From Hyphomicrobiales bacterium (lineage in GTDB: Bacteria > Pseudomonadota > Alphaproteobacteria > Rhizobiales > Rhizobiaceae), in contig UCMW01000013.1 of assembly GCA_900473745.1 (NCBI GenBank), positions 124,001 to 188,000 of the forward strand: a stretch of DNA of 64,000 nt, written 5' to 3'. Shown piece by piece: positions 3,667-34,724 of this stretch. Under the pieces are notes generated by a model. The model had not been told where the DNA came from, ran no database searches, and worked only from the letters and a program-made list of their open reading frames with translations. Position numbers and translations under genes: made by a program. Positions within the stretch are counted from its first letter, which is position 1. Each line of letters begins with the position of its first letter.

Positions 3667-3757
3667 CGTCACCGAAACTTCACCTGATGGCAATCAGTGC
3701 GACATGAAGCCTGCTTAGCACTGCGGCGTTTTCTTCCCCTTCCAACAAGGTGACGCC

Positions 3758-5116
3758 ATGACCAAAGCTCTTCTGACGTCTGCTGCCCTCTTTGTCCTTT
3801 TCGTCTCCCAGGCCTCGGCCGAGGAGAAGGCCTTCCCGGCCAAGCTCGTCAACCATGCGATCCTGCCGGCGAACACGATCATCGCAGCACCGGCCGATGC
3901 GCCCGATTATCTCAAGACCTCCGGCAAGTTCTCGACGGCTGACCGCAAGCGTGCGGATGCGCTCGGTAGCGTGCCCGGCAAGGACGGCGTGCGCCCGACC
4001 GGCCTTTCGCTACCCTTCGATGGCCAACCCCTGCAGGGTTTTTCCGGCATCAAGCACATGGACGACGGCACATTCTGGAGCCTCTCCGACAACGGCTTCG
4101 GCTCGAAGAACAATTCCAGTGATGCCATGTTGATGCTGCATCACCTGACCTTCGACTGGGATGCCGGCGCGTTGAAGGTCGAAAAGACCCTCTTCCTGAC
4201 TGATCCCGACAAGAAGGCGCCCTTCCCGATCGTCATGGAAGGCTCGGACAAGCGTTATCTGACAGGCGCCGATTTCGACGTCGAATCCATCCAGCCGGTG
4301 GCCGATGGCTTCTGGGTCGGTGAAGAACTGGGGCCCTATATGCTGAAGTTCTCGAGCGAGGGCGTGCTGACCGATGTCATCGCCACCAAGGCCGGCGAGA
4401 TCGAGGTGAAGTCGCCTGACAATCCGACCATCGTCGTCCCGGCGAACCCGGCTGCCAAGATGCCGGTGTTCAACCTCAAGCGCTCCGGCGGCTATGAGGG
4501 CCTCGCCATGTCGAAGGACGGCACGAAGCTCTATGGCATGCTCGAAGGCCCGCTCTACATGGAAGACGGTTCCGTCGAAAAGGCCGATGGCCTGACGGCG
4601 CTGCGGATCATCGAGCTCGACGCCGCCTCCAAGGCGTGGACCGGCAAGACCTGGCTCTATCCGCTGTCGGAAGGTGGCGAGGCGATTGGCGATTTCAACA
4701 TGATCGACGAGACGACGGCTCTCGTTATCGAGCGCGACAATGGTGCGGGTGTGGTTGAAAAGGCTTGCGCCGATCCAAAGGCGCCGGCTGCCGACTGCTT
4801 TGCCGTTCCGGCCAAGCATAAGCGGATCTACAAGATCGAGATGACGGACGACAATGCCGGCAAGGCCGTGCGCAAGATCGGCTATATCGACCTGATGAAG
4901 ATCGAGGATCCCGACAACAAGAAGCGTCAGGGCGGCGGCGAAGGTTTTTACGACATGCCCTTCGTCACCATCGAGAACGTGGACGTGGTCGATCCGACCC
5001 ATATCGTCGTTGGTAACGACAACAACCTGTCCTTCTCGGCCGGCCGCGCACTCGACAAGGCAGACGACAACGAGTTCGTCCTGCTCGAAGTGGGTGAATT
5101 CCTTAGCGCGAAGTAA
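3758..5116 (+). CDS. Exported esterase-like/phytase-like beta-propeller protein
   Basis: The 452-residue product starts with a clear Sec signal peptide (MTKALLTSAALFVLFVSQASA, cleavage predicted after ASA at about residue 21). The mature protein matches the 'esterase-like activity of phytase' family by FSGIKHMDDGTFWSLSDNGFGSK, DFDVESIQPVADGFWVGEELGPY, GYEGLAMSKDG and the C-terminal VGNDNNLSFS segment. These fit blades of a periplasmic beta-propeller that probably binds Ca2+. Substrates in this family are poorly known; phosphate-ester hydrolysis is family-based inference. It is monocistronic, 91 bp after aconitase X, and followed by a terminator-like hairpin facing the convergent ppx gene. Confidence 0.8.
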   Translation: MTKALLTSAALFVLFVSQASAEEKAFPAKLVNHAILPANTIIAAPADAPDYLKTSGKFSTADRKRADALGSVPGKDGVRPTGLSLPFDGQPLQGFSGIKHMDDGTFWSLSDNGFGSKNNSSDAMLMLHHLTFDWDAGALKVEKTLFLTDPDKKAPFPIVMEGSDKRYLTGADFDVESIQPVADGFWVGEELGPYMLKFSSEGVLTDVIATKAGEIEVKSPDNPTIVVPANPAAKMPVFNLKRSGGYEGLAMSKDGTKLYGMLEGPLYMEDGSVEKADGLTALRIIELDAASKAWTGKTWLYPLSEGGEAIGDFNMIDETTALVIERDNGAGVVEKACADPKAPAADCFAVPAKHKRIYKIEMTDDNAGKAVRKIGYIDLMKIEDPDNKKRQGGGEGFYDMPFVTIENVDVVDPTHIVVGNDNNLSFSAGRALDKADDNEFVLLEVGEFLSAK

Positions 5117-5138
5117 GCTCGCCGCCTGAAACGAAGAA

Positions 5139-5168
5139 AGCGGGTCCCGGCCCGCTCTCTTTCTGTTT
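5139..5168 (+). terminator. Rho-independent-like terminator between phytase-like gene and ppx
   Basis: AGCGGG (5139-5144) pairs with CCCGCT (5151-5156) across a 6-nt loop and is followed by the T-rich run CTCTTTCTGTTT. It lies between two convergent genes and suits the upstream plus-strand gene. Confidence 0.55.
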
Positions 5169-5184
5169 GGCTTGTCGATCTTCT

Positions 5185-6705
5185 TTATTCGAAGACGAAG
5201 GCCAGCCGCTTGCCCGTCAGCTTCGAGAGCTGCATCAGGCGCCCGTCCAGTCGTTCACCGGCGAAGTCCTCATAGGATTTCGGCACGACGAATTCGAGGT
5301 CGAGTTCGGGGTTGTCCGAACGACGGAAGTTCAGGTTGTGGACCACGCCGGGCATGGAGGCGGAGAAGAGATAGACCACCCGCAGCATGCCGCCAACGAG
5401 CTTCGCCCGATCGAGAAGGCGTTCGGTGGCGATTGCCGCCAACGGGCCGGTCTGGCCATCGTCGTGCAGGCCCTCGAAGCGGTAGTAGTTGGTAAGCGCG
5501 ATGAAGGCGCGGCCCGGATGGGTGATGCCGACGAAGGAGGAGTGGGCAATGACGTTCAGCGCCTGCAGCCCGCGATAATCCGGATGCGCGCGCCAGCTGA
5601 TATCGGCGAGCAGGCAGGCGGCCTTGCGATAGCGGGTTTCCTCTTCCGTCTCCTCGATGTCGAAGAAGGACATCATCTGGCCCGTCCAGTCGGCGAGTTC
5701 ACGGGCATGTTCGGGCGACCGGGCACGCAGAATGGCGAGTTCGTCGGCGGCTTCGACCAGCGGGTCGAGCGCCTGTTCCTCGTCGAGCAACAGAGAGTAG
5801 AGATACCCTTCGCGCACGCCCTGGGCCGAGAAGCAGACACTCTTCGGCTTCATGATCTCGATCACTTCGCGCATGGCAACCGCGCCGAAGGGGATCAGGT
5901 TGCGACGGCTCTTGGAGATCGTCGACCAGGCGGGATCGCGACTGTTCGCGCCGGATATGATCTCTTCCAGGAAAAAGGCGATCTCGTCATAGGGCAGCTC
6001 GTAGCCCTGCATCATGTGCAGCGGATACTTGCGGATTTCCATGTGCAGCTTGGCGATGTTGCGCCAGGTGCCACCGACCGCATAGAAGGTGCGCCCCTGC
6101 CCCTTCTTCAGGAGGACAGCATCGCCGACGAGCTTCTTCGCCAGTGTGCGGGCCTTGGGCAGCGAGCCCTCGACGCTTTCCGACAGGCGCAGACCGCCAA
6201 GCGGCAGCGTGATGCCCTTGCCGAAGCCCTTGCCGTTGATATCGATCAGTTCGAGTGAACCGCCGCCGAGATCACCGGCAATACCGTCCGCGTCGTGGAA
6301 GCCGCTGACGACGCCGAGAGCTGAATATTTCGCTTCTTCCTCACCGGTCAGCACCTGGACTTCGTGACCGAGGATTTCTTCAGCACGGGCAATGAAATCG
6401 GGGCCGTTGGAGGCCTCCCGGGCGGCAGCTGTGGCGAGCACATACATGCGCGTCGCCTGGGCCTGGTTGGAGAGCGCCCTGAAACGGCGCAGGGCCGCGA
6501 GGGCGCGCTCCACACCCTCCTCGTCCATCCGGCCGGTCGTGGCCACGCCCCGCCCGAGACCGCACAGGACTTTTTCGTTGAACAGAACCGTCGGGGCGCG
6601 GGACAGCCCCTCATAGATCACGAGGCGGATCGAATTCGAGCCGATGTCCACAACGGAGACAGGGGCGATACCGGGAAGGCGCCCCTGGGCTTCAGATCTT
6701 GTCAT
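5185..6705 (-). CDS. ppx: Exopolyphosphatase (Ppx/GppA family)
   Basis: The 506-residue protein has the ASKHA-fold signatures of Ppx/GppA phosphatases: DIGSNSIRLVIYEG at residues 20-33 and GDLGGGSLELIDI near residue 145. It hydrolyses terminal phosphates of polyphosphate and possibly pppGpp. The C-terminal half (about 320-506) holds the HD-like helical domain (AHSSFVGITHPGRAFIAL). Its start lies 12 nt downstream of the ppk stop, so synthesis and breakdown of polyphosphate are probably co-transcribed. The ATG at 6705 directly follows ppk and no better start is visible. Confidence 0.92.
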   Translation of the reverse strand: MTRSEAQGRLPGIAPVSVVDIGSNSIRLVIYEGLSRAPTVLFNEKVLCGLGRGVATTGRMDEEGVERALAALRRFRALSNQAQATRMYVLATAAAREASNGPDFIARAEEILGHEVQVLTGEEEAKYSALGVVSGFHDADGIAGDLGGGSLELIDINGKGFGKGITLPLGGLRLSESVEGSLPKARTLAKKLVGDAVLLKKGQGRTFYAVGGTWRNIAKLHMEIRKYPLHMMQGYELPYDEIAFFLEEIISGANSRDPAWSTISKSRRNLIPFGAVAMREVIEIMKPKSVCFSAQGVREGYLYSLLLDEEQALDPLVEAADELAILRARSPEHARELADWTGQMMSFFDIEETEEETRYRKAACLLADISWRAHPDYRGLQALNVIAHSSFVGITHPGRAFIALTNYYRFEGLHDDGQTGPLAAIATERLLDRAKLVGGMLRVVYLFSASMPGVVHNLNFRRSDNPELDLEFVVPKSYEDFAGERLDGRLMQLSKLTGKRLAFVFE

Positions 6706-22085: not shown

Positions 22086-22110
22086 AGGCCCTTTGGCCGC
22101 ACCCCACAAC

Positions 22111-22141
22111 AAAAAAGCCGGGATCGCTCCCGGCTTTCTTT
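22111..22141 (+). terminator. Bidirectional Rho-independent terminator
   Basis: AAAGCCGGGA (22114-22123) pairs perfectly with TCCCGGCTTT (22128-22137) over a TCGC loop. It has an A-run before and a T-rich run after, so it can terminate both the GST gene and the convergent porin gene. Confidence 0.85.
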
Positions 22142-23950: not shown

Positions 23951-25974
23951 ATGGAGGAAAGCTGCCCGACGGCGGCGTTCTCTATGACGGAACGGAAGAG
24001 GACGACGACGACATCGTCGTCGAGGTCGAGCCGGCGCGTGCCGGGATCGAGATCGACTGGCATGTGGATGGGCTGGACGAGACCGGGCTTACCGGCGCCG
24101 ATCTGATTGCCGAATTCGTCAAGCGCCTGCCGAACGCGCCCGGTGTCTACCGGATGCTGAACAAGGACCGCGAGGTCATGTATGTCGGCAAGGCGCGCAG
24201 CCTGAAGAAGCGCGTCAGCAACTATGCCCAGGGCCGCGTGCATTCGAACCGCCTGTCTCGCATGGTGCGGGACACCGTGCACATGGAATTCGTCACGACC
24301 CGCACCGAGGTCGAGGCGCTGCTTCTCGAAGCCAATCTGATCAAGCGGCTGCGTCCCCGCTTCAACGTGCTTCTGCGCGATGACAAGAGCTTTCCCTATA
24401 TCCTGATCACGGGCGACAGTCGGTCTCCCGCGATCTACAAGCATCGTGGCGCCCGTGCCAGCAAGGGCGACTATTTCGGCCCCTTTGCCTCGGCCAGCGC
24501 CGTTGGCCGCACGATCAACTCGCTGCAGCGGGCGTTTCTCCTGCGCACCTGCACCGACAGCGTCTTCGAAAGCCGCACGCGCCCCTGTCTGCTCTATCAA
24601 ATCAAGCGCTGTTCGGGTCCCTGCACCCATGAGATCAGCGACGAGGATTATTCCGGCCTCGTGCGCGAAGCCAAGGACTTCCTTTCGGGCAAGAGCCAGA
24701 ACGTCAAGGAAGCCATGGCCCGCGCGATGAACGAGGCGGCCGAAGACCTCGACTTCGAGCGCGCCGCCGTGTTTCGCGATCGTCTCGCCGGGCTCAGCCA
24801 TGTCCAGAGCCATCAGGGCATCAACCCGGCCGGTGTCGAGGAAGCCGATGTCTTCGCCATCCATCACGAAGGCGGGCTCTCCTGCATCCAGGTCTTCTTT
24901 TTCCGGGCCAGCCAGAACTGGGGCAACCAGGCCTATTTTCCCAAGGCCGATCCGCAGCTCAGCGCGGCGGAAGTACTCAACTCGTTCCTTGCCCAGTTTT
25001 ATGACGACAAACCCGTGCCGCGGCTGATCCTGCTGTCGGAAGAGGTGGACGAGCAGGATCTGCTGGCCACGGCGCTTTCCGAAAAGGCGGGCCACAAGGT
25101 GGCAATCAGCGTGCCGCAGCGCGGGGAAAAGAAGGATCTCGTCGATCACGTGAATTCCAATGCCCGCGAGGCGCATGGGCGGAAACTGGCCGAAACCGCC
25201 TCGCAGTCGCGCCTGCTGGCGGGTCTCGCCGAGACCTTCCAGCTGCCTTACGTGCCGCGCCGCATCGAGATCTACGACAACTCCCATATCATGGGCACCA
25301 ATGCCGTCGGCGGCATGGTGGTCGCCGGGCCGGAAGGCTTCGTGAAGGGCCAGTATCGCAAGTTCAACATCAAATCGACCGACATCACGCCGGGCGACGA
25401 CTTCGGCATGATGCGGGAGGTAATGACCCGCCGCTTCTCGCGCCTGCTGAAGGAAGAAGGGAAGCCGGATCGCAGTGCGGCCCTGGAGGACAACGCTGAC
25501 GCCGGCTTCCCCGCCTGGCCGGATGTGATCCTCATCGACGGCGGCCAGGGGCAGATGTCGGCCGTGCGCAAGATCCTCGACGAACTCGACATCACCGACA
25601 GCGTGATTGCGATCGGCGTCGCCAAGGGTGTCGACCGTGATGCCGGCCGCGAACGCTTCTTTGTCCAGGGCAAGCCGGACTTCACCCTGCCCCCGCGCGA
25701 TCCGGTTCTCTATTTTATCCAGCGCATGCGCGACGAAGCCCACCGCTTCGCGATCGGGTCCCACCGGGCGCGGCGCAAGAAGGAAATGGTGAAAAACCCA
25801 CTCGACGAGATCGCCGGCATCGGCCCGACCCGCAAGCGGGCACTGCTGCAGCATTTCGGCACGGCAAAGGCCGTGTCGCGGGCGGCGATCAGTGACCTGA
25901 TGGCGGTCGAGGGCATTTCCGAGGCTGTCGCCCGGCTGATCTACAATCATTTTCACGAAAGCAGCGGTGACTGA
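23947..25974 (+). CDS. uvrC: Excinuclease ABC subunit C
   Basis: UvrC makes the dual incisions in nucleotide excision repair. The 675-residue protein has the GIY-YIG nuclease domain ([20 protein letters not shown] at about residues 60-79), a cysteine cluster ([13 protein letters not shown]), the UVR motif for UvrB contact (about 240-275), the RNase-H-like incision domain ([30 protein letters not shown]) and a C-terminal helix-hairpin-helix (about 615-670). An acidic N-terminal extension of about 55 residues ([12 protein letters not shown]) precedes GIY-YIG. It is co-translated with the SDR gene. Confidence 0.97.
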
Positions 25975-26095
25975 CACGGAAACGACGCATCCGGGGTCGA
26001 GAGGTTCGAAAAGGTCATTCAAAATTCTTAGGTTGACGGCCTCGACCGAAAACCTTCACATCTATTGAAGCACCAGAATACAAAGACAGGGCATC

Positions 26096-26677
26096 ATGGC
26101 TTCGCGCGCATACAATATTCCCAATCTCCTCACCTACGCCCGCATTTTGGCCGTGCCGCTGATCGTTGTCTGCTTCTTTGTTGAAGGCCGGCTGCAGAGT
26201 TCCGACTTCGCCCGTTGGACCGGCCTTGCGATCTTCATTGTCGCGTCGATCACCGACTATCTCGACGGCTATCTCGCCCGGATCTGGAACCAGACCTCAA
26301 ATATTGGCAAGATGCTCGACCCGATCGCGGACAAGCTTCTGATCGCCTCGGTGCTGCTGCTGATGGCGGCCGATGGAACGATCGCCGGATGGTCACTCTG
26401 GGCGGCGATCACCATTCTCTGCCGCGAGATCCTGGTTTCGGGTCTTCGAGAATATCTCGCGGCGCTGAAGGTGTCCGTGCCGGTGACACAGATCGCCAAG
26501 TGGAAGACGACGGCGCAGATGTTCGCGCTCGCCTTCCTGCTCGCCGGCCCCGCCGGCGACAAGATCTTGCCCTATACGACTGAAGCCGGCATCACGCTGC
26601 TTTGGATCGCCGCGATCCTGACCATCTATACCGGCTATGACTATTTCCGCGCCGGCGCGAAGCACATGGTGGATTGA
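26096..26677 (+). CDS. pgsA: CDP-diacylglycerol-glycerol-3-phosphate 3-phosphatidyltransferase
   Basis: PgsA makes phosphatidylglycerol phosphate at the inner membrane. The 193-residue protein has about five hydrophobic helices and a perfect CDP-alcohol phosphotransferase motif, DYLDGYLAR-x8-GKMLDPIAD (D-x2-DG-x2-AR-x8-G-x3-D-x3-D) around residues 60-85. It lies 121 nt after uvrC, and moaD starts 2 nt after its stop codon, so the last three genes are tightly linked. Confidence 0.95.
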   Translation: MASRAYNIPNLLTYARILAVPLIVVCFFVEGRLQSSDFARWTGLAIFIVASITDYLDGYLARIWNQTSNIGKMLDPIADKLLIASVLLLMAADGTIAGWSLWAAITILCREILVSGLREYLAALKVSVPVTQIAKWKTTAQMFALAFLLAGPAGDKILPYTTEAGITLLWIAAILTIYTGYDYFRAGAKHMVD

Positions 26678-26678
26678 G

Positions 26679-26933
26679 ATGGTGAAGGTCGTTTACTTCG
26701 CCTGGGTTCGCGAGCGGATCGGCAAGGGCGAGGAAGAACTCGACATTCCGGCCGAGGTAAAGACGGCCGGCGAACTGGTCGCCTGGCTTGCAACGCTCGG
26801 CGAAGGCTATGAGGAGGCGCTGCGCTTTCCCAAGGCGATCCGGGTGGCGGTCAATCAGGAGCATGTCGAGCACCACGAACTAATCGCGGGCGCCCGCGAG
26901 ATTGGCATCTTCCCACCGATGACCGGGGGCTGA
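26679..26933 (+). CDS. moaD: Molybdopterin synthase small subunit
   Basis: The 84-residue ubiquitin-fold sulfur carrier starts MVKVVYFAWVRERIGKGEEEL and ends in the required Gly-Gly (FPPMTGG), which is adenylated and thiocarboxylated. It donates sulfur to precursor Z together with MoaE. The start at 26679 follows the pgsA stop by 2 nt; an earlier start at 26637 would lie inside pgsA. moaE begins 22 nt downstream. Confidence 0.95.
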   Translation: MVKVVYFAWVRERIGKGEEELDIPAEVKTAGELVAWLATLGEGYEEALRFPKAIRVAVNQEHVEHHELIAGAREIGIFPPMTGG

Positions 26934-26955
26934 AGGGCTCGCGCCGCTGGAGTTC

Positions 26956-27435
26956 ATGACCATGACGGCCAAGCCCACACCAATCATCCGTGTCCAACGG
27001 GACGACTTCGATGCGGCCGCCGAGGCGCGGGCACTCACGGCCGGACGCCGGGATGTCGGCGCGCTCGTCTCCTTCGTCGGCCTCTGCCGCGACGAAGCGG
27101 GCACGCTGGCCGCACTCGAGCTCGAACATTATCCCGGCATGGCCGAGGCGGAGATGCAGCGGATCTGCGAACTGGCGATAGACCGCTTCTCCCTGCTCGG
27201 GCTCACAGCCATCCATCGCTTCGGACGGATCGAAGCCGGAGAGCAGATCGTGCTCGTGATCGCCGCGGCACCGCATCGGCAGGCGGCCTTTGACGGCGCG
27301 AACTTCGTCATGGATTTCCTCAAGACCTCTGCTCCCTTCTGGAAGAAGGAACACGGGCGGGACGGGACAAGCGGCGCCTGGATCGACGCCAAGGATGCGG
27401 ACGACAGCGCCAGGGACCGCTGGCTTACGGAATGA
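26956..27435 (+). CDS. moaE: Molybdopterin synthase catalytic subunit
   Basis: The 159-residue protein matches MoaE: GALVSFVGLCRDE near residue 35, LELEHYPGMAEAEMQ near 57, HRFGRIEAGEQIVLVIAAAPHRQAAFDG and the catalytic-lysine segment FLKTSAPFWKKE. It pairs with MoaD to convert precursor Z into molybdopterin. The window also encodes a molybdopterin oxidoreductase (16435-18549), a possible user of the cofactor. The 3' end overlaps the convergent permease gene by 11 nt. Confidence 0.95.
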   Translation: MTMTAKPTPIIRVQRDDFDAAAEARALTAGRRDVGALVSFVGLCRDEAGTLAALELEHYPGMAEAEMQRICELAIDRFSLLGLTAIHRFGRIEAGEQIVLVIAAAPHRQAAFDGANFVMDFLKTSAPFWKKEHGRDGTSGAWIDAKDADDSARDRWLTE

Positions 27436-28321
27436 TGCGTTCCAGGCGGCTGATCACCAGAAGCCAGACCAGAGCGGAGATGATGACGGCATCACGCCAG
27501 ATCTGTGGCCCGTAGGCTCCCCAGAACTGCTCGGCGAAACCGACGGCGGCCGCGCCCAATGCCGACCGCAGCGGATGCGAAGATCCGCCAACGGCGGCAA
27601 TCAGAACCACCTTCAGCCCGAACATCAGGCCCGCACCGAAATCCATAGTGCCATAGAGAGCCGTTGCCGACAGGCCGCCGAGTGCCGCCATGGATGCAGC
27701 GCCCATCAGCGCGAGCACGAAAATCCTGTCGGCATCGACACCGACAAGGCGCGCCGCCAGCGTATCCTGGCAGACAGCCTGCCAAAGGCGCCCTGCCCGG
27801 CTCGCCGTCAGCAGCCAATGCCCGGCCGCGACCAGCGCGAGCATCAGGCCGACATGCAGGATCTGCAGTCGGGTGAGCCCGAGTGACACGCCATCGACGA
27901 GAAAGAGGGTGACGAACTGCTGCCCCATGGGCGGTAGCCAGAGGCTTCGGGTGTCGAGCGCGAGCCGCGCGCCTTCCGAGAGCAGGAGAACCATTCCGAG
28001 TGACGCGACGATCACAGCATTCGGCGAGTGCCGGTGCAGCGGCATCATGACATGGCGGGCGTTCCAGTAACCTGCGAGCAGCGCATAAGCGAAACCGGAG
28101 AGCAGGCCGAGGCCGAGCGCCGCGGGCGAGACGAGATAGAGGCGGTTCCAGCCCAAATCGGTGAACAGGAGACAGATCTGACCGGCAAAGGCCATCAGCG
28201 CTCCGAAGGTGATGTCCGGCCGCTTCGTCACCCCGAAGGCGAGCGAATAACCAAAGGCCAGCAAGGCGTAGAGGCTCGCCATGGGCAGCGCGTTCAGGAG
28301 CTGTTGCAGCAGATAGGCCAT
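27425..28321 (-). CDS. Orphan LivH-type branched-chain amino-acid ABC permease
   Basis: The 298-residue polytopic membrane protein matches LivH permeases: LLNALPMASLYALLAFGYSLAFGV at the N-terminus, then ITFGALMAFAGQ, a RAGRLWQAVCQD coupling loop (EAA-like) and GFAEQFWGAY near the end. I set the start at ATG 28321 because GGAGGA (28332-28327) precedes it; ATG 28339 would be leaderless and touch the palindrome. No LivM, LivG, LivF or binding protein is adjacent, so partners must be elsewhere or it has another role. It is divergent from a CGNR regulator across 58 bp. Confidence 0.85.
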   Translation of the reverse strand: MAYLLQQLLNALPMASLYALLAFGYSLAFGVTKRPDITFGALMAFAGQICLLFTDLGWNRLYLVSPAALGLGLLSGFAYALLAGYWNARHVMMPLHRHSPNAVIVASLGMVLLLSEGARLALDTRSLWLPPMGQQFVTLFLVDGVSLGLTRLQILHVGLMLALVAAGHWLLTASRAGRLWQAVCQDTLAARLVGVDADRIFVLALMGAASMAALGGLSATALYGTMDFGAGLMFGLKVVLIAAVGGSSHPLRSALGAAAVGFAEQFWGAYGPQIWRDAVIISALVWLLVISRLERIIP

Positions 28322-28340
28322 GCGGTCCTCCAGCCGCATT

Positions 28341-28372
28341 TATAACTATCAAAATGCATTTTACCAGTTATA
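28341..28372. promoter_or_regulatory. Palindromic operator candidate between permease and CGNR gene
   Basis: TATAACT (28341-28347) and AGTTATA (28366-28372) form a perfect inverted repeat. Centred inside it is a second perfect palindrome, AAAATGCATTTT (28351-28362), on the same axis (28356/28357). The 32-bp nested palindrome fills nearly the whole gap between the divergent genes, so a dimeric regulator bound here could control both. The adjacent CGNR protein is the obvious candidate. Confidence 0.65.
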
Positions 28373-28379
28373 TTGAGCC

Positions 28380-28931
28380 ATGACCTTTTCCTGGACCCCG
28401 CACCGCTTCGTCGGTGGCGCACTGGCGCTCGATGTCGCGAACAGTGTCATCCTGCGGCACGAGCCGGAGGGGCGGCGCGACCGTTTCGCCTTGCCGGAGC
28501 AACTCGCGGCTTTCCCGGAGGCGGCTTCGCTGCTCTCCGGCGAACGAGACAGGTTCGGTGTCCTGCGGCCTGTGCCGCCGCAAAACGCGACGCTGTTCCT
28601 GGAATTGCGTGAGGCGATCGACGCCTATTTCCGCAACCGCGTGCGGGGGGAAGCGAGCCGGCAGCAACTTGCGACGCTGCTGGAGGTGAGCGCCACGGCC
28701 CTGCGCGCATCACCGGGCGACGACAGCCTCGAGGCTGCGACCGCGCATTCGGCGCTCGGCCTCATCTGTGAACCCGAGCCCGAACGCATGAAGATCTGCT
28801 TCAATTGCGGATGGCTGTTCATAGACCGCAGCAAGAACCGCAGCCGGACATGGTGTGACATGGCGGTCTGCGGGAACCGGGTGAAGGCAAGCCGCCACTA
28901 TCATCGCAACAAGAAGGAGATCTCGCCATGA
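28380..28931 (+). CDS. CGNR zinc-finger transcriptional regulator
   Basis: The 183-residue protein has the CGNR-type zinc finger at the C-terminus: C140-x2-C143, C159-x4-C164, with C164-G-N-R-167 followed by the basic SRHYHRNKK tail. The N-terminal part (FVGGALALDVANSVILR) is the usual ABATE-like stress/ligand domain. It is probably a DNA-binding autoregulator. It starts 8 bp after the palindrome at 28341-28372 and is divergent from the LivH-type permease. It overlaps the next lipoprotein gene by 4 nt (ATGA). Confidence 0.88.
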   Translation: MTFSWTPHRFVGGALALDVANSVILRHEPEGRRDRFALPEQLAAFPEAASLLSGERDRFGVLRPVPPQNATLFLELREAIDAYFRNRVRGEASRQQLATLLEVSATALRASPGDDSLEAATAHSALGLICEPEPERMKICFNCGWLFIDRSKNRSRTWCDMAVCGNRVKASRHYHRNKKEISP

Positions 28932-29449
28932 GGGCGATCACGATCGGGGCTGGCCTGCTGATTGGCCTCGTATCTCTGGTGGGCTGCCAGCGTGAAGATC
29001 TGGACGAGCCGCTGAAGCTATCCGGCAAGGTGTTCATCTTCAATTATCGCGTGGCAGAGGCGACCTATGTGGTGACGCTCGCCCGCAACGGGCCGCTGCC
29101 CGAGCCGAGCTTCGCCGAAGCGACATTCGAGAACCCCGCGGGCGGTGAAGCTTTGATCACCCGCACCAAGATCTTTCCCTTCTGGCAAAAGGTGTCGCTC
29201 GAAAGTCCCCCGGTGCGTTGCGTCGTGAAGGATCATCCCTATGCGATCTCGATCAAGGTTCTCGATGGCAAGGGCGCGGTGTTACAGACGATCGACACGA
29301 CGCTGACATCGAGCCTCGACCAGTCCATCCTGCCGGGCAAGCCGCTTGTCGTCGGCCCGGTCTACACACCCAATCCGGATGTCTACGGAGCGGACGGGAC
29401 GGTCGATTACGCCCAGGAGACCTCCTGCCCAGACGTTGCCGCCCGATGA
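28928..29449 (+). CDS. Uncharacterised lipoprotein
   Basis: The 173-residue product has a lipoprotein signal peptide with a lipobox LVGC (Cys20), so it is probably lipid-anchored. The mature part is rich in beta-strand pattern (VFIFNYRVAEATYVVTLAR, VSLESPPVRCVVKDHPYAISIKVL). It has no family I recognise. It is translationally coupled to the CGNR regulator (ATGA) and so is probably controlled with it. A link to the divergent permease is possible: a regulator, a membrane permease and an envelope lipoprotein form one module. Confidence 0.75.
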   Translation: MRAITIGAGLLIGLVSLVGCQREDLDEPLKLSGKVFIFNYRVAEATYVVTLARNGPLPEPSFAEATFENPAGGEALITRTKIFPFWQKVSLESPPVRCVVKDHPYAISIKVLDGKGAVLQTIDTTLTSSLDQSILPGKPLVVGPVYTPNPDVYGADGTVDYAQETSCPDVAAR

Positions 29450-29483
29450 TCGCCACTTATGGGAATGCCTTGTCCGCAGACGA

Positions 29484-29510
29484 AAAAACCGGAGCCTTTC
29501 GGCCCCGGTT
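29484..29510 (-). terminator. Rho-independent terminator of ndk
   Basis: On the minus strand AACCGGGGCC (29510-29501) pairs with GGCTCCGGTT (29496-29487), with one mismatch, followed by a run of T (complement of 29485-29490). A second hairpin without a T-run, TTGAGGC/GCCTCAA, lies at 29530-29547. Confidence 0.7.
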
Positions 29511-29555
29511 CATCAATTCTTCCAATGCCTTGAGGCTTGAGCCTCAAAACTTGAT

Positions 29556-29978
29556 TCAGCCGACGATCTCGGTGTCGGCGAACCAGTACTTGATTTCCTG
29601 GGCAGCGGTTTCCGGAGCGTCCGAACCGTGAACCGAGTTCTCGCCGATCGAGAGGGCGAACATCTTGCGGATCGTGCCTTCGTCGGCATTGGCCGGGTTG
29701 GTGGCGCCCATGATTTCGCGGTTCTTCAGGATGGCGTTTTCGCCTTCGAGAACCTGAACGACGGTCGGGCCGGAGGTCATGCCTTCAACCAGTTCGCCGA
29801 AGAAGGGGCGTTCCTTGTGAACGGCGTAGAAGCCTTCGGCTTCGCGCTGGCTCATCCATACGCGCTTGGAAGCGACGACGCGCAGGCCGTTGTCTTCGAA
29901 GACCTTGGTGATCGCACCGGTCAGGTTGCGCTTAGTGGCATCGGGCTTGATCATCGAGAAGGTGCGTTCAATCGCCAT
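29556..29978 (-). CDS. ndk: Nucleoside-diphosphate kinase
   Basis: Ndk equilibrates nucleoside triphosphate pools. The 140-residue protein has the N-terminal [18 protein letters not shown] and the active-site [12 protein letters not shown] containing the phosphohistidine. The length is standard. I placed the start at 29978, 22 residues inside the longest frame, because the conserved N-terminus begins there and AAGGATGAG lies just upstream. It has its own terminator. Confidence 0.96.
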
Positions 29979-30093
29979 CTGTCTCATCCTTTTGTCTGTC
30001 AGGGAAAGTGGGCGGTATCTACCCGCCCCGAATCGCGAAGACAAGAGGGGTTCACGAATTTCACGCCGACGTCATAATCGGGCTCCCGCAGCC

Positions 30094-30777
30094 TTACGCC
30101 ACGGCCCGGGCAACACCCTGGTGGAGATCGAGGCAGCGAACGAACCAGCGGCTGACCGGGTCATCCTCCGGCAGGTGAAGGGATCCCGTGGTAATCCTCA
30201 GCCACTGCAGCGCACCGAACAGGATGTAGTCGCCAAACAGCGGCTTTTCGCCACCGACAAAGGGCTGGAAAGACAGCATGTGGCGAAGTGGCTGGAGCGC
30301 TGCCGGCAGCGCGGCGATCGCCGCATCCCGTCCGGCTGCGATCTCCTCAAGGCTCTTGCCAAGACGCTCTTCCCGGCTCTTGCGGAAATAGGCCTGGTCA
30401 ATGGGGTCCAGCATATCGTGGATGTCGATCAGCGCGATGCGGGTGATTGCGCCATGGACGACATGCTGTGCATAGCCCTCCACCAGCCGCGCCGCCGCCT
30501 CGCCGCCCGGACCGCCGAAGAGGCTCGGCGCATCCGGATAGGCTTCTTCGAGATATTGCGCGATCCGGAAGCTGTCGGAGACCAGTTCCTGTCCGTCCCG
30601 TAGAACCGGAACGGTCTTGGAAGCGCCATTCTCCACCGTCGGGATCGCTGTGAAAGCCAGCGGGCGTTCTTCAAATACGAGCCCCTTGTGATGCAGTGCC
30701 ATCACGACCTTCCAGCAATGCGGTGAAAAAGGGCGGGCTGCGTTGGTGCCGCAGAGAGAATAGAGGGTGATCGTCAT
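30094..30777 (-). CDS. Glutathione S-transferase family protein
   Basis: The 227-residue protein has a thioredoxin-like N domain (ITLYSLCGTNAARPFSPHCWKVVMALHHKGL), a cis-Pro SKTVPVLRDGQELVSDSFRIAQYLEE segment binding glutathione, and a helical C domain with FGDYILFGALQWLR. Cys9 and Ser-Pro-His-Cys around residue 18-21 could be thiol active residues. The substrate is unknown. It is divergent from the DinB gene and 115 bp upstream of ndk on the same strand. Confidence 0.87.
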   Translation of the reverse strand: MTITLYSLCGTNAARPFSPHCWKVVMALHHKGLVFEERPLAFTAIPTVENGASKTVPVLRDGQELVSDSFRIAQYLEEAYPDAPSLFGGPGGEAAARLVEGYAQHVVHGAITRIALIDIHDMLDPIDQAYFRKSREERLGKSLEEIAAGRDAAIAALPAALQPLRHMLSFQPFVGGEKPLFGDYILFGALQWLRITTGSLHLPEDDPVSRWFVRCLDLHQGVARAVA

Positions 30778-30911
30778 TGGCGTCTCCTGATGTCTCGCCA
30801 GACAACCGCATCACGGAGCTTGATGCAAATCAGCAATTTTCATGGAACCCATCAGCCCCATTGCTCTCAAATCGGTCTAGTCTGAGCGACGATCGCAATC
30901 AGGAGAACGAG

Positions 30912-31418
30912 ATGCAGAACTACCAGATGCTCGCCGAGTACAATGCCTGGGCCAACCGGCTCCTCTACGCGGCCGTTGGAGAACTCTCCGACGAAGAGCT
31001 GGAGCGGGACACCGGCGCCTTCTTCGGTTCCGTCTTCGCAACCCTCAGCCACATCCTGACCGCCGACCGTGTCTGGCTCAACCGTTTCACCGGTGAAGGC
31101 CCGAAGCCGATGGCGCTCGATGAGCGTCCCTATGAGCGGTTCGACGACCTGCGTGCCGCGCGGGTGGAAGAGGACGATCGCTTCATCCGCTATACCCGCA
31201 GCCTGACGCCCGACGCGATCGAGCAGCCGTTTACCTATTCGCCGGTCAGTTCACCCGAGGTCGTGACGCAGAAGCTCTGGCCTGCCCTCACCCATGTCTT
31301 CAACCACCAGACCCATCACCGCGGACAGGTGCATGTGGGATTGACCGGGATGGGAAAACCAAGCCTCAGCCTCGACCTCGTCTATTTCGTCCGCGGCGAA
31401 GGCAAGGCCTGGATGTGA
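30912..31418 (+). CDS. DinB-family metal-binding helical protein
   Basis: The 168-residue four-helix protein has the DinB/YfiT metal triad: a histidine in ATLSHILTADRVWL near residue 50 and the HQTHHRGQ segment near 135. DinB proteins often use bacillithiol or other thiols as transferases in Firmicutes; the role in proteobacteria is not settled. The ATG at 30912 follows AGGAG (30901-30905) by 6 nt; 45 in-frame residues upstream lack conservation. It is followed by a strong terminator. Confidence 0.87.
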   Translation: MQNYQMLAEYNAWANRLLYAAVGELSDEELERDTGAFFGSVFATLSHILTADRVWLNRFTGEGPKPMALDERPYERFDDLRAARVEEDDRFIRYTRSLTPDAIEQPFTYSPVSSPEVVTQKLWPALTHVFNHQTHHRGQVHVGLTGMGKPSLSLDLVYFVRGEGKAWM

Positions 31419-31460
31419 GGGGTGGCATCGCCCCTTCATAAGTTGCGGGCTGATGAACAA

Positions 31461-31494
31461 AAAAAGAGGCCGCAATCATCGCGGCCTCTTCTAT
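31461..31494 (+). terminator. Bidirectional Rho-independent terminator between dinB-like and mcp genes
   Basis: AAGAGGCCGC (31464-31473) pairs with GCGGCCTCTT (31481-31490) over a 7-nt loop. An A-run precedes and a T-rich run follows, so it can serve both convergent genes. Confidence 0.85.
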
Positions 31495-31522
31495 TTGGCA
31501 CTCGCGCTGGAGCCTAACGCTG

Positions 31523-33115
31523 TCAGGCGGCCCGTCGGGTAGCGTAACCTGTCTTCGAGCCGACCTGGAACTGGGCCATCAGCTGATCGAGTGTCGTTGC
31601 CTCCTGCACGAGTTGCTCGATGGCAGCGCTGGATTCTTCGACCATCGCCGCGTTCTGCTGGGTATCCCGATCGATCTGGCCAATAGCTGAATCGATTTCG
31701 GCAAGCCCCTGTGCCTGGCTCCTGGCACCATCGATGATCTTGCAGATCTCCCGGCTGATCGCCTGAACCTCGGTCGAAATCGTGCTCAGGGCCTCGCCCG
31801 CTTGGTCGACCAGCGAGACACCGTGGCGGACTTCTTCGCCTGATGTGTTGATCAGCGCCTTGATCTCCTTCGCCGCATTGGCGGAGCGCTGCGCAAGTTC
31901 GCGAACCTCCTGGGCGACGACCGCGAATCCCTTGCCGGCCTCACCGGCACGGGCCGCTTCGACGCCTGCATTGAGCGCCAGCAGGTTTGTCTGGAAGGCA
32001 ATTTCATCGATGACGCCGATGATGTTGGAAATCGACTGCGACGACTGCTCGATGCGGCTCATGGCGGAGACGGCATCGGTGACGATCGTGCCGGAGCGCT
32101 CCGCACCGGTTCTCGCCTGATTGACCAGTTTGCCGACCGAGTCTGCGACGGATGCCGTGTCCTTGACCGTCGACATGACGCTGGACAAGGCGCTTGCGGT
32201 TTCCTCGACCGAGACGGCCTGACGTTCGCTTCTGGCAGAGAGATCGTTGTTGGCCTGACTTATCTGGCCCGTGCCGTTCCGCAGTACCGAGGCAACCTGC
32301 CCCACTTGGGACACGACAACTTCGAGCTTTTGGACTGATGCGTTGAAGGAAGTCCGCAATTCATCAAGGGGGCCGGAGAAGGCCGTGTCGATGCGGCAGG
32401 ACAGATCGCCATCCGCCAGCTTCTGCAAGGACTTCGCGAGTTCGGCCACGGCAAAATCGACGGCGTCGGCTTCCCGCGCCTTTTCTGACTCCCGCTTGCG
32501 GCGTTCAGCTTCTGCCGCAGCATCCGTACGTCTGGCGTGATCGGCCATCTCAACGGCCTCGCGCTCGGCGGCAACGGCTTCGGCGACGGACTTGTCGGAG
32601 ACATCGAAAGCCTTGACGACCGCCGAGGTCAGGGCGATCAGGACGATGCTCTGCACGATCAGCACGACCGCATGCAGAACGACGCGCGAGAAGTCGGAAT
32701 CACCCGGAAAGACCGCCAGGGGCATCGCGACATACAGCAGCAGATGGTGGACCGCGACGAGCGCGGCGTAACCGATGATGGCACGCCAGTCGATCCAGGC
32801 GGCGCAGATGGCAAGGCTTGCGAAGAAGTACATATGCAGGTCGATCTGCAGCGGCGATCCCTGGAATGCAAAGACCAGGATGGCGACCGTTGCCGCATTG
32901 GCCATGGAGGTGACCATGCGGGTGGTCGCGCCAGTGCGATCCTGTGCCCACAGCAAGGTGGCCGGTACCAGCAGGACGAGGGTCGCCAGGATCATCATCC
33001 AGTCGGCGCCCTCTTCGCGCACGAGGTTGCGGATCAAGATCAAGGCAAAGTTGATCCAGAGCAGTCCGACGATGCCGTAGGAGACCCTGTCTCTGAGCTT
33101 CTTCAGTTCATTCAT
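31523..33115 (-). CDS. Methyl-accepting chemotaxis protein with polytopic membrane sensor
   Basis: The 530-residue receptor has about six N-terminal membrane helices (residues 10-190) instead of a periplasmic ligand domain, then a coiled linker, a HAMP-like segment ([19 protein letters not shown]) and a full signalling domain with the hairpin-tip [21 protein letters not shown]. It lacks a C-terminal CheR/CheB-tethering pentapeptide and ends TRRAA. The sensor resembles MASE-type domains that sense membrane or redox state. ATG 33115 is preceded by AAGGAA and overlaps the stop of a 99-aa membrane protein (ATGA), so the pair is co-translated. Confidence 0.9.
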
Positions 33116-33411
33116 GTGTTCATTCCTTGCAGGCAACCGAGTGCCAGATCATGGTTGATGACGAGCAAAGCGCCCGCATCGAGTAGCCGCTCCGGAAAAT
33201 CCGGGGCTGGCGAATATGCGACCGACATCCAGGGCACGCTTCCAGCCCAGACGAAAGCGCCGTCTGCCCGGTCGATGACGGCCATCGAACCGGCCGCATT
33301 TGCAGCCGGTGAAGTTACGACGAGGACGAAGGGTCCGGACGGCCTTGCCGCGATGACAGCGACAACGGCGACCGCCAGCGAGAAGTAGACAGCGGGAATG
33401 AGGGACTTCAT
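33112..33411 (-). CDS. Small single-pass membrane protein coupled to chemoreceptor
   Basis: The 99-residue protein has one N-terminal hydrophobic helix (residues 4-22, [19 protein letters not shown]) and about 75 residues predicted to be periplasmic ([19 protein letters not shown], then [16 protein letters not shown]). I recognise no family. It lies directly upstream of the chemoreceptor and overlaps it by 4 nt (ATGA). The receptor has no obvious periplasmic domain, so this protein may supply a sensing or assembly function; that is inference only. Confidence 0.65.
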
Positions 33412-33477
33412 GATGCCTACGGATGTTCGCCGGTCGAGTGCTTGTTAAGCGCTTCCCCGGCCTGCTCTGAGGACATC

Positions 33478-33502
33478 ATTTAGAACACATACATCTCTAA
33501 AT
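33478..33502. promoter_or_regulatory. Inverted repeat in chemoreceptor/GGDEF divergent promoter
   Basis: ATTTAGA (33478-33484) and TCTAAAT (33496-33502) form a perfect 7-bp inverted repeat with an 11-bp spacer, the size of a helix-turn-helix dimer site. It lies 67 bp upstream of the small membrane protein start and 200 bp upstream of the degenerate GGDEF gene, in the AT-rich centre of the gap. Confidence 0.5.
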
Positions 33503-33594
33503 AATAATTAACTGAAGGGCAGAAACCCCTCATTCCTCAGGGGAATTTCGATTTGACAAAAGCCAAGGGAAAGCCCTTGAAGCACCTGTATGCC

Positions 33595-33602
33595 TTAACC
33601 GT
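33595..33602 (+). promoter_or_regulatory. CtrA-like TTAACCGT motif
   Basis: TTAACCGT resembles the CtrA core TTAACCAT with one change and lies 100 bp before the degenerate GGDEF start. A TTGACA hexamer (33553-33558) lies upstream, but no good -10 is at the right distance. The rest of the 290-bp gap (33412-33701) shows no ORF. Confidence 0.2.
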
Positions 33603-33701
33603 TTCGTATGTGATGCCGTGTTACGAGACCTGAATTCCGTGGGAATAGTTCCGACTTCCCGCAGGTTAAGCGCAACTCATCGCATGATCAGGACGGTTTT
33701 G

Positions 33702-34724
33702 ATGAGCGGACTTCCAGACGATCTCCAGAAGATCACAGTCTTCATGCTGAAGCATCAGATCGCAGGGCTTCCCCGCAACTTCGAACTTGTCCATGAAGCC
33801 TTTACAGGCGGCAATTCGGATCTTGCGCGCGAGCTTTCAGCCCTTGGTGCCCGCCCGACACAATCGGCGCTCGACCAGCTCGGCCTCAAGCACAGGCTTG
33901 CCGGCCATTGCGGTGTCTCGGCCGAGCGCTTGCAGGATGAAACGCTTAAGACGCTGACGCGGCTCAGCGACCAGCTGTCACTCGGCCTGACACAGAAGCG
34001 GGCCTTTACGAACTCCGTTGAGGGCGTCATCCGCTCGATCCGCGAGGATGTCAGTGTCGGTATTGACCAGTTGCTCGGCGAACTGGATCTGCTCTCCTCG
34101 ATTGCCAGAGACATGATCAAGGCGGAAACCGCACTCTCCTCCGATGTGGCCGAGGGGCTGGACAGCCTGAATGCTGCAGACCGTGCCATTCGCGCGGCGC
34201 AGGCTGCGATGAAGCGCGATCATCTGACCGGGCTTGCGAACCGCATCAGCCTCTTCCAGACACTGGAGGAGGCCCATTCGGCCGCCTCGGCGGCCAAGCC
34301 GAGCGCGCTCGTGCTGATCGAAATCCTCGACCTTCCCGCTCTGCAGCACCAGTATGGCGCCGAGGCCGTGAGCAAGCTGATCAAGGGCCTGGCCGGGATC
34401 TTTCGCAAGGCGATCAAGAAGCACGACTTCATCGCCCGGATCGAGGCTGACACCTTTGCCTTCGTCTTCGATGGCATCAATGCCGACGAGGCGCACATCA
34501 TCGCCGAACGGCTGTTCACGACGGCGGAAAACAATCTCGTCTTCGCCTCCGAGACCTCGCAGGGTGTCGGCGGCCTGCCGCTCGCCATCGGCCATGCCAT
34601 GGCCCACGAGGCTGCAGATCCGACCAGTTGGCTTGCCATCGCCAAGACCGCGACGATCCTTGCCCGTCAGAACCCGCGCCAGCCGATCATCGGCTACAAG
34701 CCCGGACAGCGGCAGGTCGCCTGA
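33702..34724 (+). CDS. Degenerate GGDEF-domain protein
   Basis: The 340-residue soluble protein has a helical N-terminal region (residues 1-165) and a C-terminal GGDEF fold starting at RDHLTGLANRISLF (172-185). The signature loop reads EADTF at 248-252 in place of GGDEF, losing both glycines and the catalytic Glu. Diguanylate cyclase activity is therefore unlikely; a c-di-GMP- or GTP-binding, or purely structural, role is possible. The start at 33702 follows AGGA (33690-33693) by 8 nt; earlier in-frame starts look non-coding. It is divergent from a chemoreceptor module. Confidence 0.82.
   Translation: MSGLPDDLQKITVFMLKHQIAGLPRNFELVHEAFTGGNSDLARELSALGARPTQSALDQLGLKHRLAGHCGVSAERLQDETLKTLTRLSDQLSLGLTQKRAFTNSVEGVIRSIREDVSVGIDQLLGELDLLSSIARDMIKAETALSSDVAEGLDSLNAADRAIRAAQAAMKRDHLTGLANRISLFQTLEEAHSAASAAKPSALVLIEILDLPALQHQYGAEAVSKLIKGLAGIFRKAIKKHDFIARIEADTFAFVFDGINADEAHIIAERLFTTAENNLVFASETSQGVGGLPLAIGHAMAHEAADPTSWLAIAKTATILARQNPRQPIIGYKPGQRQVA

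Follow-up and report, generated by a model that had tools for sequence, protein, structure and literature searches.

Are a lone LivH-type ATP-binding cassette (ABC) permease, a zinc-finger regulator and an unrecognized lipoprotein, encoded side by side in a Hyphomicrobiales genome, one regulatory unit, and what could such a unit do? The locus lies in a window of 64 000 nt (genome G000, contig C20, positions 124001–188000; positions below are those of the window unless another locus or contig is named). In this window the permease gene diverges from a gene for a regulator with ABATE and CGNR zinc-finger domains, which in turn overlaps the lipoprotein gene. By comparison with related genomes, we found that a palindrome in the gap between the divergent genes is conserved, that its presence is tied to that of the CGNR gene, and that the three genes are inherited as a unit. 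With high probability this palindrome is the operator of the CGNR protein itself, and we propose an operator pattern for the ABATE-CGNR family that reaches beyond this single locus.

Conservation of the intergenic palindrome

Positions 28341–28372 read TATAACT-ATC-AAAATGCATTTT-ACC-AGTTATA around a single axis between 28356 and 28357, with 13 of 16 pairs matched, in agreement with a preliminary description of this DNA that had reported TATAACT and AGTTATA on one axis. The improbability of the palindrome itself was rejected as evidence: two axes in the window reach 13 or more of 16 pairs, and 30 simulated first-order Markov windows held a mean of 0.63 such palindromes per 64 kb, with at least one in 14 of the 30. 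As the palindrome alone is near chance, it is conservation, not improbability, that carries the evidence. The other axis in the window, of equal quality (13/16), lies at 22110–22141.

The same-genus set (L002–L031) comprised our own locus and its 29 best relatives; TAAC-N20-GTTA was exact in all 30, and the axis of the site lay 23–25 nt upstream of the CGNR ATG in each. A second set consists of the 80 best among 434 loci from a lipoprotein profile search, all of them named Rhizobiaceae loci. It shares species with the first set, is therefore not independent of it, and describes close relatives rather than all relatives; the nearest named loci among these best 80 were those of a Rhizobiales isolate (97 %), Allorhizobium and Rhizobium, from which we place our own genome in Rhizobiaceae. 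Here too TAAC-N20-GTTA was exact in 80/80. The site agreed with the consensus at 22–28 of 28 positions (at least 24 in 77 loci), and the CGNR ATG stood 7–9 nt past the 32 nt site, a fixed placement. All 80 loci showed the order permease (−), CGNR gene (+), lipoprotein gene (+) together with moaE, and 75 also had ndk. Both the gene order and the palindrome, which the preliminary description had singled out for comparison in other Rhizobiaceae, were retained wherever the genes occurred in this set.

Among relatives the majority unit is TAACTGGYAAAA-N4-TTTTRCCAGTTA. In the 80 named loci the four bases at the centre are almost unconstrained, and the inner TGCA of the window is not conserved; what had been described as a nested palindrome is better seen as one pair of 12–14 nt arms round a free 4 nt centre. 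Most of the 80 loci have GGY/RCC at the place of the ATC/ACC mismatch in the window. Many relatives lack the outer TA of the left arm, and TAACT is invariant in 80/80.

Presence of the predicted operator follows the CGNR gene

Across 150 relatives, CGNR matches (E up to 1e-40) occurred in 44 genomes and permease matches (E up to 1e-50) in the same 44; the lipoprotein (E up to 1e-40) was matched in 43, the exception being G030, whose CGNR match sits at the extreme end of a contig. An operator pattern allowing up to three mismatches was matched once each in 39 of the 150 genomes. Every one of the 39 belongs to the 44 that have close CGNR and permease homologues; the remaining 106 genomes gave no match. 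In the five genomes of the 44 that the pattern missed (G006, G014, G038, G048 and G055) TAAC-N20-GTTA is exact and the arms are weaker, and G102, one of the other 106, has a more distant trio with an exact TAAC-N20-GTTA and weak arms. No second operator was found in our own genome at up to three mismatches of the related pattern TATAACT-N3-AAAA-N4-TTTT-N3-AGTTATA, looser half-site patterns not having been searched genome-wide.

Outside the genus, the operator was matched at L081 (26/28), at L080 (23/28) and weakly at L067 (17/28). It was not found at L069 (11/28) or L071 (14/28), which are divergent permease–lipoprotein pairs with no CGNR match nearby. Nineteen of 20 further CGNR loci (L208–L227) carried TAAC-N20-GTTA, the remaining one, L227, having GAAC.

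TAAC half-sites before other CGNR genes

The order-level set was assembled from 8 loci and 35 of 45 further matches; L271, which lacks a CGNR match, was left out, giving 42 CGNR loci. Within 350 nt upstream of these genes, TAAC and GTTA were spaced by 10 nt in 15 loci and by 20 nt in 11 (25 loci together), as compared with shuffled means of 0.10 and 0.07; every other spacing from 4 to 60 occurred in 0–3 loci. Gene bodies and further upstream sequence, 52 419 bases in all, served as a control and held no site, and TAAC ranked first of 256 four-letter words at both spacings. In 56 class- or phylum-level loci, five of which are trio members, the spacing was 10 in 11 loci, 20 in 13 and 21 in 16, with 0–4 loci for the others; among four-letter words TAAC led at spacing 20, and at spacing 10 it was outranked only by GCCG (13).

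The trio loci (L323, L325, L329, L331 and L332) were then removed, and 93 loci were reduced to 82 by shared 16-mers. TAAC-N10/20/21-GTTA preceded 46 of these 82 non-trio CGNR genes, a total that takes in spacing 21, which was included only after the counts were known. Spacings 10, 20 and 21 were seen in 21, 15 and 15 loci and other spacings in 0–6, whilst 300 shuffles gave a mean of 0.71 and a maximum of 5 loci, and 120 225 bases downstream contained no site. A further 583 491 bases, from other loci and the window, held ten sites at CGNR genes (14 sequences hold one) and three elsewhere. The half-site is TAACC or TAACT, and A is favoured at positions 10–11 for spacings 20 and 21. Spacings of 10 and of 20–21 are one helical turn apart, a difference that would fit two CGNR subunits bound to the same face of the DNA.

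One TAAC-N20-GTTA of the window (33596–33623) stands away from the CGNR gene and is probably a chance occurrence.

Inheritance of the three genes

The trio also leaves traces where it has been lost. At the corresponding place in G057 (L063, 4668–4846) a scar remains in which a permease piece (259–286) abuts a lipoprotein piece (138–168), with moaE and ndk kept, and G042 keeps a lipoprotein piece. Our own genome holds a decayed copy of the module on contig C8 (31570–32322; L062, 3571–4323), in which lipoprotein 92–159 adjoins permease 121–304 on opposite strands. These pieces are 53 % (lipoprotein) and 44 % (permease) identical to the window copy, so the C8 copy is not a recent duplicate.

Elsewhere the three genes stay together in other settings. 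The trio stands beside other genes in L067, L080, L274 and L275, and in G336 (L272) it is rearranged into the order CGNR gene (−), permease (+), lipoprotein (+), with permease and lipoprotein co-directional. At L069 and L071 the permease and lipoprotein are divergent neighbours in the absence of a CGNR gene.

Two side observations concern these loci. The LivH-type permease of G336 (L272, 6193–7206) has an apparent signal peptide of its own, which would place its N terminus in the periplasm. In G042 an unrelated frame of 136 amino acids, with a GFA-type look by eye, occupies the module's place (L064, 4276–4686).

The permease, its missing ATPase and the lipoprotein

The permease belongs to the BPD_transp_2 superfamily of ABC importer permeases (PF02653, 96.6 bits, cut-off 26.8). 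The branched-chain amino acid permeases LivH/BraD are the nearest known system, and LivH (NF008011) is its best NCBIfam match, but at 76.3 bits it falls below LivH proper, for which the cut-off is 379. Contig C20 contains no second PF02653 match and no PF12399 match, and a hidden ATPase near the permease was rejected on the latter ground. Inspection by eye of 24000–34000 revealed no LivF- or LivK-like frame, hence no binding protein there. In related locus L086, an ATPase-like frame near the module was set aside as a soluble-type tandem ATPase (ABC_tran, ABC_tran_Xtn).

An ABC permease without an ATPase should not act alone. The preliminary description suggested looking for the ATPase elsewhere in the genome; this search returned four PF12399 matches (one below cut-off), all in complete systems (L333–L336) that already have two permeases each and, by eye, two ATPase-like genes each, of which our pattern caught five of eight. 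The module is thus not the self-contained one that had been described, as neither an ATPase nor a partner permease nor a binding protein was found with the permease. The closest of the eight complete-system permeases is the LivH-like one of L333 (27 % identity). A G-x4-A-x3-[DN] motif, in a stretch that presumably faces the ATPase, is kept in the orphan permease and occurs at the same aligned place in seven of the eight; G177, R178, W180, D186, A190 and G194 are invariant in 20 aligned permease sequences. The retained motif is why we think that the permease might borrow ATPases, a proposal that we nonetheless regard as doubtful. The open-access literature searched yielded no paper that treats a LivH permease standing alone.

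Neither Pfam (up to E 0.1) nor NCBIfam (up to E 0.01) gives a match for the lipoprotein. It is a lipoprotein as judged by sequence pattern: a permissive lipobox pattern is present in 78 of the 80 named relatives, and the predicted lipobox cysteine C20 is invariant in 36/36 sequences of an alignment (A4) built with 35 of the 80 relatives, those below 90 % identity, L113 and L166 being left out for a stop in the stretch. The predicted model is a seven-stranded immunoglobulin (Ig)-like sandwich with a mean predicted local distance difference test score of 81.3. A fold search gave as its best hit the Ig-like domain of LacZ (Z 10.1, root-mean-square deviation 2.5 over 101 residues), a common fold that implies no function; by sequence no solved relative was found (best E 0.32). 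Among members of the lipoprotein family some have a lipobox and some an apparent membrane anchor.

Gene calls, putative promoters and proposed mode of control

The features of the locus are collected in Table 1. The regulator is the only CGNR zinc-finger match of the genome at E up to 0.001, and both of its domains score above cut-off (PF07336, 34.2 bits against 24.4; PF11706, 59 bits against 24). C140, C143, C159 and C164, together with G165-N166-R167 of the CGNR motif, are invariant in 16/16 aligned CGNR sequences, our own included. The divergence of the permease and CGNR genes and the overlap of the CGNR gene with the lipoprotein gene were both confirmed; the overlap is ATGA in the window, and one of 4 nt recurs in 59 of the 80 named relatives. 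The permease start is most likely at 28321, being preceded by GGAGGA, and relative L010 has in-frame stops before the matching ATG. With this start the permease–CGNR gap is 58 bp rather than the 40 bp given earlier, and the interval first proposed for the module, 28321–29449, takes in the regulator and lipoprotein genes and nothing of the permease gene beyond its start codon.

Table 1. Features of the permease–regulator–lipoprotein locus
Feature	Position	Strand or side	Details
Orphan LivH-type ABC permease (PF02653)	27425–28321	−	298 aa; start ATG 28319–28321
ABATE (PF07336) + zf-CGNR (PF11706) regulator	28380–28931	+	183 aa; by Pfam scores
Lipoprotein, lipobox LVG-C20, predicted Ig/fibronectin type III-like beta sandwich	28928–29449	+	173 aa
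Full palindrome	28341–28372		13/16 pairs
Predicted CGNR operator core, TAAC-N20-GTTA	28343–28370		By conservation across loci
Putative −35 CTATCA, CGNR promoter	28346–28351	+	Inside left arm; 17 nt spacing; 3/6 consensus bases
Putative −10 TATATT, CGNR promoter	28369–28374	+	ATG 5 nt on
Putative −10 TATAAA, permease promoter	28339–28344	−	Overlaps left arm
Putative −35 CTGGTA, permease promoter	28362–28367	−	17 nt spacing
Shine–Dalgarno-like GGAGGA of permease	28326–28331	−	Read directly in sequence
moaE	26956–27435	Flank on permease side	MoaE by Pfam
ndk	29556–29978	Flank on lipoprotein side	Named by eye

A strict consensus scan of 28200–28600 detected no promoter and no terminator, and the putative promoters therefore rest on position and conservation. 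A −10-like TATAAT or TATATT stands at the outer end of the right arm in 77 of the 80 loci. Seventeen nt upstream of it, in the left arm, the −35-like hexamer of the CGNR gene is CTGGCA in 37, CTGGTA in 12 and CTGTCA in 8 of 79 loci. On the permease side, the outer two bases of the arm that the −10 overlaps are variable among relatives. In the 79 loci with a GTTATA anchor the distance from −10 to ATG is 5–7 nt, with no Shine–Dalgarno-like 4-mer between; given this short distance, the CGNR RNA probably begins at the AUG itself, and the mRNA is perhaps leaderless.

We propose that an ABATE-CGNR dimer binds the 28 bp operator at 28343–28370, in which the TAAC half-sites are inverted and separated by two turns of the helix. 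Both the −35 and the −10 of the regulator's own promoter would lie within this operator, as would a large part of the divergent promoter of the permease, so that the bound dimer would block polymerase and repress regulator, coupled lipoprotein and permease together. Repression would be lifted by a ligand in the ABATE domain, for which amino acids and 2-oxo acids related to them are candidates. In the membrane the permease could then form the alternative, LivH-like half of an ABC importer of amino acids whose second permease and ATPases are borrowed from a resident Liv/Bra system, with the Ig-like lipoprotein serving it on the periplasmic side. Repression, rather than activation, is our working assumption. 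That one regulator acting on one operator controls all three genes, as first suggested in the preliminary description, appears highly likely from the comparisons, given the order and operator in 80/80 loci, the joint presence of the genes and the absence of the operator from the two CGNR-less pairs; the joint transport function would be a further and more conjectural step. To the whole explanation, from repression by the CGNR protein to import with borrowed ATPases, we assign a probability of roughly 0.6.

Alternative explanations

The symmetry of the site could instead come from the −10 and −35 elements of two mirror-image promoters, or from a hairpin. It is true that −10-like and weak −35-like hexamers occur in both arms. 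However, the strict scan was empty for promoter and terminator alike, the outer TA of the left arm varies beside an invariant TAACT, and TAAC half-sites recur at set spacings before distant CGNR genes and not at the two CGNR-less pairs, all of which make this origin quite improbable. Binding by some other regulator, to which the CGNR gene is merely adjacent, seems more improbable still: the dyad is like the sites of GntR-type repressors, but operator presence tracks the CGNR gene in 150 genomes, and CGNR genes throughout Pseudomonadota show an enrichment of TAAC-N10/20/21-GTTA upstream. It is also conceivable that the gene order is passively inherited by three genes with separate jobs. The flanking moaE and ndk are kept in the close set as well, and the lipoprotein family exists elsewhere without the other two genes. 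Against this stand the joint absences, with flanks kept in the two genomes inspected (G042 and G057), the rearranged trio of G336, the trios with other neighbours, and the permease–lipoprotein pairs that lack a CGNR gene; we consider passive inheritance improbable. An explanation with more in its favour, although in our judgement still unlikely, accepts the regulation as real and takes the permease and lipoprotein to work without an ATPase, as a passive facilitator or a surface sensor of nutrient state. A crude ATPase pattern applied to 14 module or related loci returned one frame, of the soluble tandem type, and the Liv-type ATPases detected in the genome are accompanied by permeases of their own; the conservation of the ATPase-docking stretch argues the other way.

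Several observations weigh against the explanation that we prefer, of a CGNR repressor governing a transport unit. G187 has the CGNR and lipoprotein genes and no permease called within 12 kb. In 12 of 17 regions (L065–L081) a member of the lipoprotein family has no adjoining permease or CGNR match, so that this family has a role without them. The operator of G102 scores 15/24, under the shuffle maximum of 16, although its TAAC-N20-GTTA is exact; at the rearranged trio of G336 (L228) the score of 16/24 only equals the shuffle maximum of 16, which leaves no clear operator there; and in G300 GAAC replaces TAAC (16/24, shuffle maximum 15). The operator pattern read backwards, as a control, had a single match in the 150 genomes (G072). 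No exact TAAC-N10/20/21-GTTA precedes 36 of the 82 other CGNR genes, and spacing 21 entered this count late. The empty promoter scan and the lack of an evident free ATPase in our genome belong here too, as do the amino-acid neighbours described below, which are few and absent at our own locus, where moaD, moaE and ndk are found.

Possible substrate and relation to known systems

The neighbours of the module in other families suggest amino acids or their 2-oxo acids as substrate or ligand. A gene for NAD-glutamate dehydrogenase is a neighbour in L069 and L272, a POR/DUF6537 oxidoreductase, which we take to be of the indolepyruvate ferredoxin type, lies behind the module in L080, L274 and L275, and a Peripla_BP_6 (LivK-type) protein is encoded nearby in L205. 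A hint of nucleobases or nucleosides (Xan_ur_permease by L084; a gene resembling major facilitator superfamily nucleoside symporters by L071) was dropped, as it consisted of two single cases. No sign of a stress-response role turned up, no search having been aimed at one.

Local ligand-responsive repressors in the style of LacI, TetR and GntR control divergent transport genes. The locus described here shares with them a short intergenic operator between divergent genes and predicted self-control, and differs in that the DNA-binding part of the regulator is a CGNR treble-clef zinc finger and not a helix–turn–helix. Among the papers listed in our search of the open-access literature, a single one, a structure paper of 2009, is devoted to the zinc-finger family itself by title and abstract.

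For Jann_2411 (PDB 3h0n), the ABATE domain was proposed to sense a ligand, which was not identified, the zinc finger was considered a probable DNA binder, and the protein a likely dimer; the genes of ABATE/zf-CGNR proteins were noted to neighbour those of ABC-transport membrane proteins (PMC2954205). The window regulator likewise carries both domains, with a weak sequence match to 3h0n that is confined to the zinc finger (E 0.058). The passages of PMC2954205 considered here name no operator, whereas we propose a concrete site and a half-site common to many CGNR loci, and a dyad operator fits dimeric DNA binding by the CGNR protein.

The predicted operator and the defined half-site make this little-studied family testable, and the operator offers a handle on its regulons and could lead to the ABATE ligand. 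Whether LivH-type permeases are swapped between ATPases is a question raised by the lone permease and its lipoprotein partner.

Permeases with an exported domain

A different exported domain was sampled in 20 regions from among the 57 genomes that have it (12 chosen mostly for short frames, 8 for long ones) together with L082–L084. The domain stood alone in 12 loci (L187–L198) and was fused before a LivH-type permease in 11 (L082–L084, L199–L206), numbers that reflect selected loci and express no frequency. The fusions have the same plan as UrtB-like permeases with an N-terminal exported domain (L334, named by eye), whereas the exported partner in the window is a separate lipoprotein from another sequence family. 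Homology between the lipoprotein and the exported domain of the fusions was considered and rejected (hhalign probability 0.3 %, A1 versus A5).

In L205 (G176, 2069–5643) a LivK-type binding protein is divergent from a CGNR gene, which is followed by an exported-domain/LivH fusion; the stretch between the LivK-type and CGNR genes, upstream of the latter, holds an operator match of 20/24 (shuffle maximum 16). It is possible that ABATE-CGNR zinc fingers read a common code, of inverted TAAC half-sites separated by whole turns of the helix (10 or 20–21 nt) at their own promoters. The rhizobial member would then govern an unrecognized unit of amino-acid uptake or sensing, made up of a lone LivH-type permease and a surface lipoprotein. 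A similar unit, in which the permease is fused to an exported domain of unrelated origin, would have arisen elsewhere, once (G176) with a CGNR gene and operator match. We advance this wider proposal tentatively, judging the odds to be slightly against it.

The exported-domain loci are often preceded by a hemB-like gene, recognized as ALAD by Pfam in L084 and by eye in the others; a different gene takes this position in L187, L189 and L195.

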